From Segatella maculosa DSM 19339 = JCM 15638 (GTDB lineage: Bacteria > Bacteroidota > Bacteroidia > Bacteroidales > Bacteroidaceae), in the NCBI RefSeq assembly GCF_000382385.1, contig NZ_KB908322.1, positions 124,001-188,000 on the forward strand: a DNA stretch of 64,000 bases. Direction: 5' to 3'. A program made the translations under genes and the position numbers. Shown one piece after another: positions 5,020 to 63,276 of this stretch (position 1 is its first letter; each line of letters starts with the position of its first letter). A model generated the notes under the pieces. The model was not told the origin of the DNA. It searched no databases and saw nothing but the letters and a program-made list of their open reading frames with translations.

Positions 5020-5057
5020 AAAAGGAATATAAAGCCTCCTCCCAACACCCTCTCTAA

Positions 5058-5134
5058 TACCCACCCTAACCCTCCTAAAGGGAGGGAGAACGAGTAGAGG
5101 GAGCCTCCCCCAACCCCTCTAAAGGAGGGGAGAG
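5058..5134 (+). repeat. PPR repeat, left inverted copy
   Basis: Two adjacent imperfect palindromes, CCCTCCTAAAGGGAGGG and CCCCTCTAAAGGAGGGG, joined by a GAACGAGTAGAGGGAGCC linker. The same composite occurs in reverse complement at 5440-5523, so the two copies could pair over about 75 bases. Related copies occur near 36.4, 48.3, 49.9, 53.3 and 61.1 kb. Confidence 0.8.
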
Positions 5135-5205
5135 TGAGGTTGGGGCAATACTTTTGAGAAAGGGTTCCTAAGCAATTGGTTTGCAGTTATATAGAGACAA
5201 CGTTG

Positions 5206-5341
5206 CAATATAGGCCATATTAGCGTGCAATATGGGTGATATTGGGCGGTAAAATGGCTGATATCATCGCACAAAATGGGGCATATTGGAAGACGAAATG
5301 GCCCATATTAGACGACAAGGTGTAATATATTGATTATCAAT
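5206..5341. repeat. P22 array A: five 22-base units plus right tail
   Basis: Units run 5206-5227, 5228-5249, 5250-5271, 5272-5293 and 5294-5315, each built on a core like AATATGGGYGATATTG followed by a GC-rich linker. They end in the conserved tail 5316-5341, whose last bases are TTGATTATCAAT. A degenerate left tail precedes the first unit. There are no spacers, so this is not a CRISPR array. Confidence 0.85.
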
Positions 5342-5439: not shown

Positions 5440-5523
5440 AACTCGCTTTCCCCTCCTTTGGAGGGGTTGGGGGAGGCTCCCTCTGTTCGCATTCCCTCCC
5501 TTTGGGAGGGTTGGGGTGGGTAT
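5440..5523 (-). repeat. PPR repeat, right inverted copy
   Basis: Reverse complement of the composite at 5058-5134: CCCCTCCTTTGGAGGGG, then CCCTCCCTTTGGGAGGG and GGGTGGG. It is followed by two further short GGCCAGAGTGGGTAT phrases up to about 5568. Confidence 0.8.
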
Positions 5524-13384: not shown

Positions 13385-13525
13385 TTTACATGAACTGTAA
13401 TCCTGCTTTCCAATCTCACCCATATTGCACGATAAAATGGGTGAGATTGCACGGTAATATGGGCCATATTGTGCGGCAATATGGGCGAGATTGGGAAACA
13501 AGATATAAGTTGTTGATTTTCAATA
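13385..13525. repeat. P22 array B: four 22-base units with tails
   Basis: Units 13411-13432, 13433-13454, 13455-13476 and 13477-13498. The first reads AATCTCACCCATATTG, the reverse complement of the AATATGGGTGAGATT type of the later units, so the array is dyad-symmetric. The right tail 13499-13525 contains GTTGATTTTCAATA; a weaker left tail precedes the units. Confidence 0.85.
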
Positions 13526-27055: not shown

Positions 27056-27148
27056 TAGGCTGCCAATGCAGTATAAGTATGGCACCCCTTTTTCATGTTT
27101 TAGTTGACAGTTGACGAGTAAACGGGTGAACAAGTGGTTGTTGCGTGG

Positions 27149-27288
27149 CATATAGGGACGCACGGCTCGTGCGTCCGCTTAAATGGGCTTGTTTATAGTC
27201 CGATTACTACCCACTTGTCAACTTGTTTACTTGTCCACTTATCCACTTACTCTGCTTGAGCGGACGCACGAACCGTGCGTCCCTACAT
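27149..27288. repeat. R95 pair with a longer centre
   Basis: Left palindrome 27149-27180 (ATAGGGACGCACGGCTCGTG...) and right palindrome 27258-27288 (GCGGACGCACGAACCGTGCG...). The centre contains GATTACTACCCACTTGTCAA and runs of CTTGT/CCACTT. Confidence 0.8.
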
Positions 27289-27312
27289 TCCCATCGTAAT
27301 CACATCACATTT

Positions 27313-27427
27313 TAAAATGGGCCATTTCACCGTGCAACATCAGCCATTTTACACGATGAAATGGCCCATTTTGCACGCTAAAATGGCTGATATTGAAACG
27401 CAAGTCATAAGCTGTTGATTATCAATA
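27313..27427. repeat. P22 array C: four units plus right tail
   Basis: Units 27313-27334, 27335-27356, 27357-27378 and 27379-27400; right tail 27401-27427 with CTGTTGATTATCAATA. Exactly 27 bases separate the tail from the R95 palindrome at 27455. Confidence 0.85.
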
Positions 27428-27454
27428 TCGCCGATACTCCGAACCGCTCGAATG

Positions 27455-27575
27455 CATGTAGGGACGCACGGTCCGTGCGTCCGCTCCGTTTCTCAGTTGA
27501 CAGTTAGCGAGTAAACGGGTGAACAAGGTGATTGTTGCGTGTTGAACGGACGCACGAGCCGTGCGTCCCTACATG
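27455..27575. repeat. R95 pair
   Basis: Left palindrome 27455-27486 and right palindrome 27544-27575. The centre carries a copy of the GTAAACGGGTGAACAAG phrase. Confidence 0.8.
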
Positions 27576-27630
27576 CCTATCATGGCTGGATTGATGCGTA
27601 AATTGAGTGATGGGGTGAGCTGCTTGAATG

Positions 27631-27728
27631 TATGTAGGGACGCACGGCTCGTGCGTCCGCCCCGATAGTCTTGCCTATTTCGCTTTTAATCAGCTTGAGT
27701 GGACGCACGAATCGTACGTCCCGGCATG
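27631..27728. repeat. R95 element of standard length
   Basis: Left palindrome 27631-27662, centre with GATAGTCTTGCCTATTTCGC, right palindrome 27697-27728 with several substitutions. Confidence 0.8.
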
Positions 27729-35749: not shown

Positions 35750-35870
35750 CCTAACCGCAAGCGGTTTATCAAAAAATATTGGAGCATAGATAAACGAAAA
35801 CAGGCCCTGTTGATTTATAAAATATTCTTGGATATTCTACGATTTCGTGGATATACCACTTGCGGTTAGG
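35750..35870. repeat. 121-base MITE-like element, copy 1
   Basis: Bounded by inverted repeats CCTAACCGCAAGCGG (35750-35764) and CCACTTGCGGTTAGG (35856-35870), which differ at one position. The interior contains TTGATTTATAAAATATTCTT and GGATATTCTACGATTT, also found in copy 2. It has no coding capacity and no clear target-site duplication. Confidence 0.75.
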
Positions 35871-35895
35871 CCACTAAAGACGCGATGCTTCTCAT

Positions 35896-36041
35896 ATTGG
35901 AAATCAACAGCTTATATCCTGTATTCTAATGTCAGCCATTTTACCGCGCAATCTCACCCATTTTACACGATGAAATGGCTCATTTTGTACACCAAAATAG
36001 CTGAGATTGGAACGCAAGCTGTAAGTTATTGATTATCAAAA
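35896..36041. repeat. P22 array D: four units with both tails
   Basis: Left tail 35896-35926 (GGAAATCAACAGCTTATATC), units 35927-35948, 35949-35970, 35971-35992 and 35993-36014, and right tail 36015-36041 (GTAAGTTATTGATTATCAAA). The two left units are in CACCCAT/CAGCCAT orientation and the two right units are inverted. Confidence 0.88.
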
Positions 36042-36068
36042 TGAATGGAACCGAGAATGCTTTGAGCG

Positions 36069-36199
36069 CATGTAGGGACTTTGATTTTGAAGTTTGAACA
36101 TTGAACTTTAACCTTTAGGATTTGCAGACTTTGAATATTGAAGTTTGAATATTGAACTTTAGGATTAGCAGAATGATAAGATGAATTGTTGACAAGAGG
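36069..36199. repeat. TTGA-rich block inserted in an R95 left end
   Basis: CATGTAGGGAC at 36069-36079 is followed by repeated TTTGAATATTGAAGTTTGAA-like phrases and GATAAGATGAATTGTTGACA. The R95 palindrome then starts again at 36200. A shorter version is at 54178-54265. Confidence 0.7.
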
Positions 36200-36297
36200 C
36201 ATATAGCGACGCACGGTCCGTGCGTCAGCTCCAATAATCTTATGTTTTCGTTTACCATTTCGCTTGAACGGGCGCACGGACCGTGCGTCCCTACATG
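36200..36297. repeat. R95 element
   Basis: Left palindrome 36200-36231, centre AATAATCTTATGTTTTCG, right palindrome 36266-36297. Confidence 0.8.
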
Positions 36298-36397: not shown

Positions 36398-36452
36398 TCC
36401 CTCCCTTTGGGAGGGCCGGGGTGGGTGTTCCGAATGGCTGGAGTGGGTGTCC
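36398..36452 (-). repeat. PPR repeat
   Basis: CTCCCTTTGGGAGGG palindrome followed by CCGGGGTGGGTGT and a second GGAGTGGGTGT phrase, the same layout as 5440-5568. Confidence 0.75.
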
Positions 36453-45527: not shown

Positions 45528-45647
45528 TATTGATAATCAACGACTTAACGGTCGCGTTTCAATATCAGCCATTTTGGCGTGTAAAGTGGGCCATATTGCA
45601 TGCTAAAATGGGTGAGATTGCGCGGCAAAATGGGTGAGATTGCATTA
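45528..45647. repeat. P22 array E: left tail plus four units
   Basis: Left tail 45528-45559 (TATTGATAATCAACGACTTA), units 45560-45581, 45582-45603, 45604-45625 and 45626-45647. The right tail is eroded. An R95 left half starts 34 bases further on. Confidence 0.85.
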
Positions 45648-45680
45648 CCATACGGTTGATGTGAAAAACCGCTTCAAGTG

Positions 45681-45711
45681 ATGTAGGGACGCACGGCTCG
45701 TGCGTCCGCCC
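45681..45711. repeat. R95 left half
   Basis: GGGACGCACGGCTCGTGCGT palindrome followed by part of the R95 centre (AAACAATCATGTATATATAC). The right palindrome is missing. Confidence 0.75.
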
Positions 45712-45803: not shown

Positions 45804-45952
45804 TTTCGTTATCGAAAGGGCTGTGTTGGCATATAACGCCAACGCTGTCATGGGACAAGTAATGTGAAAGCAACGCCGATGGCGTTGAACTCTTGCTCGT
45901 CATTTGGCAACAGCGTTGACATTGCATGCCAACTGCCCTCTAAATAACGAAA
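45804..45952. repeat. 149-base element with TTTCGTTAT inverted ends
   Basis: It begins TTTCGTTATCGAAAGGGC and ends GCCCTCTAAATAACGAAA. The two halves are imperfect inverted copies, with inner GTTGGC/GCCAAC stems. A one-sided homologue lies at 53769-53854. Confidence 0.65.
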
Positions 45953-46066
45953 CCCCTATGGGGTTTATCCGTTAAGTTCTGTTTATTTGCTTATTATTCT
46001 CCGATATTCTTTGAAAACTGCTTCCAGTTAGGCAATGAAAATTGCGAGAATTTCAGGCTTGGAGCC

Positions 46067-48326: not shown

Positions 48327-48366
48327 GGGAGCCTCCCCCAACCCCTCCAAAGGAGGGGAGAACGAC
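48327..48366 (+). repeat. PPR repeat upstream of the S46 gene
   Basis: GGGAGCCTCCCCCAACCCCT followed by CCAAAGGAGGGGAG, nearly the same as 5101-5132. Confidence 0.75.
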
Positions 48367-48412
48367 TTGAATGTGACTTCTTTCATTTGTAGGGCAAGGC
48401 AGTTTGTGATGT

Positions 48413-53257: not shown

Positions 53258-53402
53258 CGGCCTCAGTCGCAGGCAAACCTCCCCCAATCCTTCCAGAGAA
53301 GGGGAGTGCTTTTCAAAGAATAATGGCCTTTGTCGCACCCAGCCTCCCCCAACCCCTCCAAAGGAGGGGAGTGTTTTTCAAGAGATAACGGCCTTTGTTA
53401 CG
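53243..53402 (+). repeat. Tandem 65-base repeat that begins inside the YejM-like 3' end
   Basis: Units about 53243-53309, 53310-53374 and a partial 53375-53402. Each starts TTTTCAAGARATAACGGCCT and the first two contain a PPR palindrome. The first unit includes the gene's last codons and stop. Confidence 0.7.
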
Positions 53403-53492: not shown

Positions 53493-53691
53493 CATGTAGG
53501 GACGCACGGCCCGTGCGTCCGCTCAAATGGCCATGCACCTGTATTCACTTCTCAAAACCATTCGCCAGCTGCTGATTTGTAATCTCGCCTTGCCTGATCG
53601 TTGATCGGGCTGGGACTATTGCATAACCACTTTGCTTTTGTTGTTTCATTCGGTTGTTTGAGCGGACGCACGAGCCGTGCGTCCCTACATG
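53493..53691. repeat. R95 pair with a 136-base centre
   Basis: Left palindrome 53493-53524 and right palindrome 53660-53691. The centre includes CGTTGATCGGGCTGGG and is unlike the standard one. Confidence 0.7.
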
Positions 53692-53768
53692 CTTATAGCG
53701 TTTTCCGATGTAAAGGCGAGGGAAGTGCGGGGGAAATATGGGTGCGCAACCAACAAACCGCATGGCAG

Positions 53769-53854
53769 TTTCGTTATTTATAGGGCAGGGTTGACGTTGC
53801 ACGTCAACCCTGTCACCGAGCGACGAGCAAGAGATCAACGCCAAGGGTGTTGCG
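53769..53854 (-). repeat. Half copy of the TTTCGTTAT element with an 11-base-pair hairpin
   Basis: Reverse complement of the right part of 45804-45952. It contains AGGGTTGACGT (53787-53797), loop TGC, and ACGTCAACCCT (53801-53811), a perfect stem. Confidence 0.65.
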
Positions 53855-53904
53855 TTTTCTTCCAATGAAAGGTTTTCCTAATTCCCGATAAAAGGTTTTT
53901 ATCG

Positions 53905-54025
53905 CCTAACCGTAAGCGGCATATAAAAAATACCAGAGAATATATAAAAGAAAATAAGCCCTATTGATTTATAAAATATTCTTGGATATTCTACGATTTT
54001 TATCAATATACCGCTTGCGGTTAGG
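53905..54025. repeat. 121-base MITE-like element, copy 2
   Basis: Bounded by CCTAACCGTAAGCGG (53905-53919) and CCGCTTGCGGTTAGG (54011-54025). It has exactly the same length as copy 1 and the same interior phrase TTGATTTATAAAATATTCTT. Confidence 0.75.
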
Positions 54026-54049
54026 AGAACAAAATCCAAGGTCTTTGAC

Positions 54050-54168
54050 ATTGGAAATCAACAACTTATATCCTGCGTTTCAATCTCAGCCATTTTACCG
54101 CGCAATGTCAGCCATATTACACGCTAAAATGGCTGAGATTACCACGCAATATGGCTGAGATTGCAAAT
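54050..54168. repeat. P22 array F: left tail plus four units
   Basis: Left tail 54050-54080 (GGAAATCAACAACTTATATC), units 54081-54102, 54103-54124, 54125-54146 and 54147-54168. The right tail is missing. Confidence 0.87.
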
Positions 54169-54177
54169 CGTTCGAAT

Positions 54178-54265
54178 GCATGTAGGGACCTTGACTTTGA
54201 ATATTGAACTTTGAACTTTGACCTTTAGGATTAGCAAAAAGATAAGATGAACTGTTGACAAAAGG
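54178..54265. repeat. TTGA-rich block, second copy
   Basis: GCATGTAGGGACCTTGACTT, TTGAACTTTGACCTTTAGGA and GATAAGATGAACTGTTGACA follow in order. The block is parallel to 36069-36199 but shorter. Confidence 0.7.
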
Positions 54266-54361
54266 CATGTAGGGACGCACGGCCCGTGCGTCCGTCCTAA
54301 CACTCGTGCAGTTGTGTTTCATTCTCCTTGCGCGGACGCACGGGCCGTGCGTCCCTACATA
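54266..54361. repeat. R95 element
   Basis: Left palindrome 54266-54297, centre AACACTCGTGCAGTTGTG, right palindrome 54330-54360. Confidence 0.8.
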
Positions 54362-54417
54362 CCTCAAAGCATGTAACTCACCAACTTACCAACTTATTTA
54401 ATTTGTCAACTCCACTT

Positions 54418-54449
54418 GCGCGGACGCACAGACCGTGCGTCCCTATATG
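54418..54449. repeat. R95 right half
   Basis: GCGCGGACGCACAGACCGTG followed by CGTCCCTATATG, without a left partner. Confidence 0.7.
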
Positions 54450-54571
54450 CGATTTCACCCATACTATGACGCGAAATGGTTGAAACAAAAAACCGGAAAA
54501 AGGTTGGTTGGAATTCAAAATGAAAACGCATGCTGAAAACCACAGCCATTTCTCCGGTTTATCCTGCTGTT

Positions 54572-63008: not shown

Positions 63009-63154
63009 ATTGAAAATCAACCACATACTTCCTGCATTCCAATCTCACCCATTTTACCGTGTAATATGACCCATATCGCCGTGCAATCTCAGCTATATTG
63101 CGCGGTAAAATGGGTGAGATTGAAAAGCAAGGTGTAAGTCGTTGGTTATCAATA
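63009..63154. repeat. P22 array G: four units with both tails
   Basis: Left tail 63009-63039 (ATTGAAAATCAACCACATAC), units 63040-63061, 63062-63083, 63084-63105 and 63106-63127, right tail 63128-63154 (GTAAGTCGTTGGTTATCAAT). R95 begins 27 bases after the tail. Confidence 0.88.
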
Positions 63155-63181: not shown

Positions 63182-63276
63182 ATGTAGGGACGCACGGCTC
63201 GTGCGTCCGCTCTAACAATCGTGCATTTGTGTTTCATCCTCCTTGAACGGACACACGAACCGTACGTCCCTATATG
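63182..63276. repeat. R95 element
   Basis: Left palindrome 63182-63212, centre AACAATCGTGCATTTGTG, right palindrome about 63245-63276 with substitutions. Confidence 0.8.

Follow-up and report, generated by a model that had tools for sequence, protein, structure and literature searches.

Intergenic repeat mosaics in Segatella maculosa and a possible 22-base register among their modules

Intergenic regions of Segatella maculosa contain composites in which several repeat families stand side by side, and we regard these composites, with high confidence, as mosaics of interspersed repeats of the REP/BIME type. Blocks of several modules have very likely been copied together. One module, P22, consists of short words spaced by exact multiples of 22 bases, and the distances from these arrays to the REPs that face them fall almost entirely into two phases modulo 22; this register is probably under constraint. 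The best overall explanation that we can offer is a mosaic of the BIME kind, spread as copied blocks and kept in register by a DNA-binding protein, a combined reading that we hold with slightly less than even confidence. If the register is real and selected, a structure of protein and DNA in phase could be recognized across whole genomes of a bacterial genus by a signature that is easy to test. The criterion, that phase is kept and sequence is free, would be one that escapes sequence-similarity searches.

Results

Architecture of the composites

The window, i.e., the stretch of 64,000 nucleotides that was analyzed, contains two composites in which a MITE-like unit is followed by P22 (a 22-nt array), a TTGA block and R95. 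This order, reported in a first-pass annotation, was confirmed at 35750-36297 and 53905-54361 (Table 1). The two composites align over their whole length (545 columns, 67%, E 3e-58), and their MITE-like units are 84% identical. The constant gap between P22 and R95 is also real, as TTGATTATCAA and ATGTAGGGAC are separated by 30 bases at both 27.4 and 36.0 kb; the gap at 63.1 kb is one base shorter. The second composite lacks the right tail of P22, so its gap belongs to another class, yet its phase modulo 22 is equal.

Weaker copies of the left module of the MITE composites (AACCGCATNGCGGTTTCGTTGTTTATAGGGCAGGGTTGACG...) were seen at window positions 45867-45965, C11:67.3k and C4:118.2k, and a stretch that resembles this module by eye comes after the composite in a related genome, G016 (L123). 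A further G-rich intergenic repeat, CCTCCCCCAACCCCTCCAAAGGAGGGGAG, occurs near mosaics at window positions 5055-5133, 5440-5523, 36398-36451, 48327-48368 and 53273-53372.

Table 1. Repeat features of the window (RNA fold z, relative to shuffled sequences)
Feature	Position	Strand	RNA fold z
MITE-like unit, 121 nt, terminal inverted repeats CCTAACCGCAAG..CTTGCGGTTAGG	35750..35870	+	-5.7
P22 element: four 22-nt units, right tail ending TTGATTATCAA, related left tail	35897..36045	+	
29-nt spacer, P22 tail to CATGTAGGGAC	36040..36068	+	
TTGA block: starts with REP stub CATGTAGGGAC, runs into R95; stub to REP ~131 nt	36069..36198	+	
R95: head-to-head GTAG REP pair, REPIN type	36199..36297	+	-7.0
Extra left module of second composite; copies at C4:49.36k and C8:4.85k, weaker ones elsewhere	53756..53863	+	
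MITE-like unit, second copy	53905..54025	+	-7.1
P22 element without right tail	54051..54170	+	
TTGA block, stub to REP ~88 nt	54179..54266	+	
R95 REP pair, second composite	54265..54361	+	-12.1
Further single REP	54403..54450	-	
Two REPs head to head, centre to centre 168 nt, off register	53493..53691	.	
REP pair, centre distance 110	27148..27288	.	
P22 element and tail; next REP after 30-base gap	27301..27423	+	
REP pair, centre distance 90	27454..27575	.	
R95 REP pair	27630..27728	.	
P22 element; REP at 45681 in register, 61 nt centre to centre	45530..45662	+	
P22 element, both tails present	63010..63152	+	-9.8
R95 REP pair	63182..63276	+	
Lone R95 REP pair, no P22	57113..57212	+	
P22 element; tail without spacer or REP at usual distance	13394..13523	+	
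P22 element alone	5192..5340	.	

Census of modules and junctions

Profiles built from the window copies were used to annotate 605 kb of the 3.31-Mb genome, made up of 29 stretches and the window; this sample was selected around hits, except for contig C4, which was covered but for 4 kb. Genes were called with a home-made hexamer scorer. The sample held 78 clusters, in which the modules were combined as P22+TTGA+R95 (24), P22+R95 (23), P22 alone (11), R95 alone (8), TTGA alone (4), all four modules (4), TTGA+R95 (3) and MITE+P22+R95 (1). On C4, where stretches were not chosen by hits, the 28 clusters (one of them split at a stretch edge at 60.0 kb and thus counted twice) were P22+R95 (10), P22 (7), R95 (4), all four modules (3), P22+TTGA+R95 (3) and TTGA+R95 (1). 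P22 itself gave 62 hits in the 605 kb, and 34 of 42 TTGA blocks ran into R95 on the same side, within 10 nt.

The spacing at the junctions was narrowly restricted. The exact pattern TTGATTATCAA N{4,34} ATGTAGGGAC was found 24 times genome-wide, with gaps of 30 (14 times), 31 (3), 9 (4) and 8 (3) only, and the reversed-pattern control was absent from the whole genome. Among 39 P22 tail ends in the 605 kb (up to 3 mismatches), CATGTAGGGAC followed at 28-30 nt in 19, at 7-8 nt in nine and at 51 nt in two; the other nine had no CATGTAGGGAC inside 90 nt. The whole genome contains four full MITE copies and two fragments; all four full copies lie 25-26 nt from a P22 element in full module order, and the fragments, by eye, are also near a P22 element.

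The modules thus follow a regular order, yet each forms a separate family that takes part in several combinations. The earlier statement that the modules are not independent repeats was not supported, as P22, R95 and TTGA were each also found alone and in other combinations among the 78 sampled clusters.

Copying of blocks and occurrence in relatives

Three composites, at C4:49.3-50.0 kb, C4:177.75-178.36 kb (in the window) and C8:4.8-5.5 kb, align with one another in three pairwise matches of 605 nt (83%), 657 nt (93%) and 673 nt (84%). Their homology includes the spacers as well as one more module on the left, and therefore points to copied blocks; to this extent, the view that the modules are copied as one unit was upheld. 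The 29-nt spacer is alike between copies by eye. In two of the three composites homology stops together at the right end of R95, and it starts at different positions on the left. These different left ends would fit recombination between dispersed repeats rather than an element with fixed ends.

The 121-nt unit has the features of a MITE, being short, present in multiple copies and bounded by the terminal inverted repeats CCTAACCGCAAG/CTTGCGGTTAGG; the sequences that flank its full copies belong to the mosaic themselves. The composite might accordingly be a single non-autonomous transposon, mobilized as a whole in trans by a transposase, as the homology across 605-673 nt and the constant order and spacing would lead one to expect. 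We consider this very unlikely. The modules also occur singly and in other combinations, and the left boundary is not fixed. All nine matches to the MITE ends fall in the six MITE loci (18/18 candidates scored), and because the ends have no other copy in the genome, no matching IS was found there. An own transposon for the whole composite was thus disfavored. A relative of the MITE-like unit was seen in G016 (L121:14983-15707) as five tandem copies with a period of ~154 (7 x 22) and no P22.

Matches to the composite were present in 31 of 100 genomes of the genus, own genome included; among the best candidates (at most six per genome), nearly all involved the TTGA part only. The match in G289 (L253) proved to be part of a 2.5-kb gene stretch with a composite, 97% identical to C11, 12.0-14.6 kb (L051), of S. 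maculosa. Its genes, named by eye, are SusC-, FecR- and sigma-factor-like. Horizontal spread of the composite by itself into G289 was rejected, and because the composite is embedded in these nearly identical genes, it travelled passively with them, a point that also speaks against mobilization of the composite as one transposon. The stretch common to the two species was probably a recent transfer of a utilization locus together with its composite.

R95, REPs and RAYT transposases

R95 is a head-to-head pair of REPs of the sequence GTAGGGACGCACGGNNCGTGCGTCC. Exact copies of this REP number 261 in the genome (132 + 129), and the reversed pattern does not occur. GTAG at the 5' foot of the palindrome and the high copy number identify it as a GTAG REP of the BIME kind. 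It was present in seven of 398 genomes of the genus, own genome included, and at 80 loci or more in other Bacteroidales; it was not found in viral contigs. P22, MITE and TTGA profiles had no hit in the 80 listed Bacteroidales loci carrying the exact REP.

Most REPs (158/171) lie outside called genes, the other 13 being inside genes or at sequence edges. Neighboring REPs are arranged head to head in 64 of 99 pairs. Spacings are mostly 90-93 nt for the +- arrangement and 110-111 nt in 13/19 pairs of the -+ arrangement; in the 80-110 nt class of head-to-head pairs, the shortest has 86 nt and the longest 110 nt, with 39/43 at 90-93 nt. The mean number of mismatches was slightly lower in doublets (0.68, 98 REPs) than in singlets (0.84, 19 REPs). 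REP clusters at C1:71k (L084) and C1:307k (L041) have alternating centre distances of ~67 and ~86, with a period of ~153 nt over several units.

Two RAYT genes in G053 and one in each of G273 and G028 adjoin GTAG REPs with stems of their own, and the exact REP is located inside or beside a RAYT gene in a Coprobacter contig and a Muribaculaceae contig (L178 and L203, which alone among the 80 listed loci had a RAYT). In S. maculosa, the best PF01797 score was 19.9 bits, below the cut-off of 23 and inside a 513-aa frame, and the G053 RAYT protein had no match at E<=1. The REPs look orphaned, because no RAYT was detected over the Pfam cut-off or by similarity to the G053 protein. From this absence in an assembly of 60 contigs that is 99.88% complete, we infer that a RAYT may once have been present and its gene since lost. 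The first-pass annotation had also stated that a trans-acting enzyme is needed, which holds at most for the REP part, given that RAYTs adjoin GTAG REPs in some relatives and none was found here. In G016, repeats flanking the Y1_Tnp genes differ from GTAG REPs; around the three genes (L120, L121 and L122) stand repeats 66-68 nt long together with 22-nt arrays, and in two cases the arrays lie on either side of the gene.

The 22-base spacing of P22 words

P22 strings together 15-base words with 7-base linkers between them; the words follow AAWATGGSTGAKWTT or the reverse complement of it, or mix the halves. Allowing up to 2 mismatches, 275 words were detected in the 605-kb sample and 17 in the reversed control. 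All 170 intervals between neighboring words at most 70 nt apart were 22 (163), 44 (4) or 66 (3) bases; the control words had no neighbors within 70 nt. With up to 3 mismatches, when many words arise by chance (529 versus 171 in the control), 189 of 195 intervals were still multiples of 22. Recent copying can hardly account for this exact spacing, because 76 distinct words were counted among the 163 that open a 22-base step, and agreement between linkers is no higher than 64% even with the better orientation taken.

The spacing extends to the nearest relative by PfkB protein, G016 (75% identity; 396 genomes compared). Its words differ (AANYTGMRTCA type), and all 97 of its intervals, detected with up to 1 mismatch, were 22 (78), 44 (16) or 66 (3). 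The 267 word intervals of the two species contain no single-base indels, though the words differ.

A scan of repeat periods of 12-45 nt gave lag 22 at 49 loci in the own genome, with at most three at any other lag apart from 44. G016 had 32 loci at lag 22, and 2-4 at other lags apart from 44. The excess was likewise clear in G132, where 100 kb gave 16 loci and no lag besides 44 exceeded three; by eye this genome has at least three kinds of words. It was also clear in G117, with four loci at lag 22 and none at any other lag save 44, and was present in G053, with 11 loci in 167 kb, several being seven-base repeats by eye. G250, G024, G345 and G266 had one lag-22 locus each, which in the last three did not exceed the counts at other lags; G045 had none. 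Beyond the genus, the count at lag 22 in the 80 listed Bacteroidales loci (570 kb) was two, a number that nearly every other lag gave too. Phased 22-nt arrays thus occur in several, not all, of the sampled genomes of the genus, and their words differ between genomes.

The register between arrays and REPs

The GTAG end of the REP faces the array in 67 of 74 neighboring word-REP pairs. For these 67 cases we measured the distance from the centre of the nearest P22 word to the centre of the REP. In 48 cases it was 39+22k +/-1 (39, 61-62, 82-84, 105, 126, 171, 193, 214 and 259), and in 18 it was 25+22k +/-1 (24, 46-47, 112-113 and 134), the sole exception being 51. Two phases modulo 22 therefore hold 66 of the 67 distances, with the qualification that the words and both phases were taken from the data in which they were tested and that copies are related; by our estimate the 67 cases go back to some ten changes of length that were independent, perhaps. 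With two three-base windows placed for the best fit, 98.5% of distances are covered at period 22, versus 81% at 21 and 70% at 23, and period 22 outscored 19-21 and 23-25. The same procedure applied to 124 word-to-gene-end distances gave 35%. The seven REPs facing away from the array had phases 4, 4, 12, 18, 19, 20 and 21.

Phase is kept across seemingly unrelated spacer sequences, TTGA blocks of three sizes, and spacers shorter by 22 or 44 bases, with these losses falling, by eye, in sequence without 22-nt repeats. Outside the 605-kb sample, all eight exact junctions had gaps of 8, 9, 30 or 31, and the same phases were observed in the own genome (L084), in G016 (L123, two distances) and in G289 (L253, one distance); the last is not independent, because it is the transferred copy.

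A test by spacer family did not favor 22. For 16 word-REP families concentration was 0.39 at 22 versus 0.56 at 11 and 0.60 at 33, and for eight head-to-head families 0.40 at 22 versus 0.57 at 20, in a grouping that linked nearly all cases in one family. The presence of two phases lowers the value at 22. Distances between REPs are only roughly quantized. They lie within 2 of a multiple of 22 in 60/64 head-to-head pairs (outliers 61, 76, 85 and 168), 14/20 tail-to-tail pairs and 17/17 same-strand pairs; for head-to-head pairs, concentration was 0.88 at 22, 0.85 at 21 and 0.84 at 23.

The register can also be read without any function. The 22-base quantum might be the footprint of copying, left either by an enzyme with a 22-base ruler or by phased units between which slippage or template switching took place, in a mosaic that is selfish or neutral and sits at the ends of transcription units, where it is harmless. 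Words in both orientations and with mixed halves are what template switching would give, and the TTGA size classes are ~44 apart, which is the period of the TTGA internal duplication. The position of the elements in long intergenic regions, at gene-order differences from G016, agrees with this reading as well. On the other hand, the losses of 22 and 44 bases in spacers without such repeats, the retention of phase by unrelated-looking spacers, and the lack of single-base indels in word intervals while R95 pairs vary in length all count against a copying footprint, which we rate as somewhat unlikely.

Genomic position and gene order

Among intergenic regions of at least 30 nt, P22 was present in 24/39 convergent, 28/168 same-strand and 6/36 divergent regions. 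Along C4, P22 elements are spaced with a CV of 0.53, which is more even than expected from all intergenic regions (p 0.0035); the evenness is weak when compared with non-divergent intergenic regions of at least 200 nt (p 0.08).

The gene neighbor on the 3' side, in regions of at least 100 nt, was kept in G016 in none of 34 cases with elements versus 15 of 39 without; one region below 100 nt with an element kept its G016 neighbor. Among 14 adjacencies broken relative to G016, elements were present at both ends in four, at one end in three and at neither in seven. We do not claim the composites as a cause of rearrangement, as convergent regions without elements also kept the G016 neighbor in 0/12 cases, and two of the four both-end cases rest on a gene that is only 62% identical to its G016 match, a doubtful ortholog. 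The loss of neighbors fits either recombination at the repeats or exclusion of the repeats from operons. Conservation of arrays at orthologous gene ends in G016 was not clear (7/15 versus 5/30 cases, Fisher p 0.07). Of 64 conserved neighbor pairs scored on both sides, none had arrays in both species, three had them here only and one in G016 only.

RNA structure

The preference for convergent gene ends would also be expected if arrays and REP pairs were transcribed and acted as hairpins at mRNA 3' ends, in termination or stabilization. Single copies do fold far better than shuffled sequences, as three P22 and two R95 sequences gave z values between -5.2 and -12.1, and nested P22 pairing held in 77.9% of cells versus 32-43% when slid by 1-3 columns. 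Comparison between copies speaks against this role. In an alignment (A1) of 38 of 46 candidate P22 copies (eight were left out before the count), 497 of 500 partner shuffles paired at least as well as the nested arrangement. Inner P22 units were complementary below expectation (0.24 versus 0.38), the consensus fold of the copies had no pairs, and Rfam gave no match in the window at gathering scores. A conserved RNA hairpin was rejected, as pairing and covariation between copies were no better than shuffled. The lack of covariation of the hairpin pairing between copies makes RNA structure a poor candidate for what is conserved, and we regard a role as mRNA hairpins as quite improbable. The feature that is kept is distance.

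Discussion

A possible origin and maintenance of the register

The preferred reading, a mosaic of copied blocks kept in register by a DNA-binding protein, would involve the following steps. REP pairs may have spread while a RAYT transposase was present, the gene being lost later. Copies recombining with one another could then have carried larger blocks to new sites, chiefly at the ends of transcription units. A putative DNA-binding protein would cover the array, with two helical turns per unit, and make contacts across to the REP. Changes that break the phase would be removed, and the register thereby kept. The protein platform as the reason for the register is the most tentative of these elements and is held at clearly less than even confidence; turns of 10.5 bp do not divide 22 bp evenly, which counts against a helical platform. 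Overall, we infer that a phased protein array has a minority chance of being correct, and that a copying mechanism with a 22-base quantum is about as likely.

A broader proposal, which we consider unlikely as it stands, is that several genomes of the genus possess chromosome-wide intergenic arrays of species-specific words, often imperfect palindromes, exactly 22 bp apart, in which REPs and TTGA blocks are tolerated only in register and with which a putative fast-evolving DNA-binding protein organizes the ends of transcription units. The register, if real and selected, would make BIME function testable. Even with no function, length changes in a quantum of 22 bases would indicate a copying mechanism that is so far undescribed.

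Relationship to known repeat systems

The first-pass annotation knew of no described family with this architecture. The same architecture was indeed not found in the literature, and the sources consulted (mostly non-subscription) held no report of 22-bp phased intergenic arrays in the genus or of a 22-base register. Its kind, that of BIMEs, REPINs and minisatellite MITEs, is already described. The comparisons below refer to the available parts of the cited sources.

GTAG REPs and BIMEs have GTAG before a GC-rich hairpin, are intergenic, and form head-to-head pairs with conserved spacers (PMC3733652, PMC2817692). BIMEs are clusters of regularly spaced, alternating REPs, and a few REP families reportedly lie inside other palindromes (PMC3733652). 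The REPs of R95 resemble them in having GTAG, head-to-head pairing, regular spacing and an intergenic location (PMC3733652). In contrast to the BIMEs of that source, the mosaics described here join REPs to a 22-nt array and a TTGA block with set spacings that differ by multiples of 22, and the genome yielded no RAYT.

R95 is also similar to REPINs, as described in PMC3116915, in that its two REPs form an inverted doublet able to fold as a single long hairpin, RAYTs are located beside GTAG doublets in some relatives, and tandem clusters with a period of ~153 occur. It differs from those REPINs in that no RAYT was found here and conservation of doublets over singlets is weak (PMC3116915). In the Bacteroidetes RAYT subclasses 2.4 and 2.6, REPs are inserted within RAYT genes, as at L178, and the flanking structures are atypical, perhaps as at the Y1_Tnp genes of G016 (PMC6006769).

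P22 is reminiscent of BrickBuilt, a MITE of Porphyromonas gingivalis, as both are intergenic minisatellites of near-equal units with a leader and a tail (PMC4596501). BrickBuilt has 23-nt direct repeats, IS5-like ends GAGACCTTTGCA and 19 copies (PMC4596501); P22, unlike it, has a period of 22, units in both orientations, ends TTGATTATCAA and, as counted above, 62 hits in the 605-kb sample. By eye, the P22 ends differ from the TIR table given for BrickBuilt, which places P22 outside that family (PMC4596501). PINSR of the Prevotella intermedia group, a 188-bp repeat with 177-184 copies and without terminal inverted repeats (PMC4755523), is, by description alone, likewise high-copy, intergenic, lineage-specific and without coding capacity. 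The same description sets PINSR apart as one single repeat, unlike the mosaic reported here (PMC4755523). Among the repeats found in related genera, BrickBuilt (PMC4596501) and PINSR (PMC4755523) are the nearest to the mosaics of S. maculosa.
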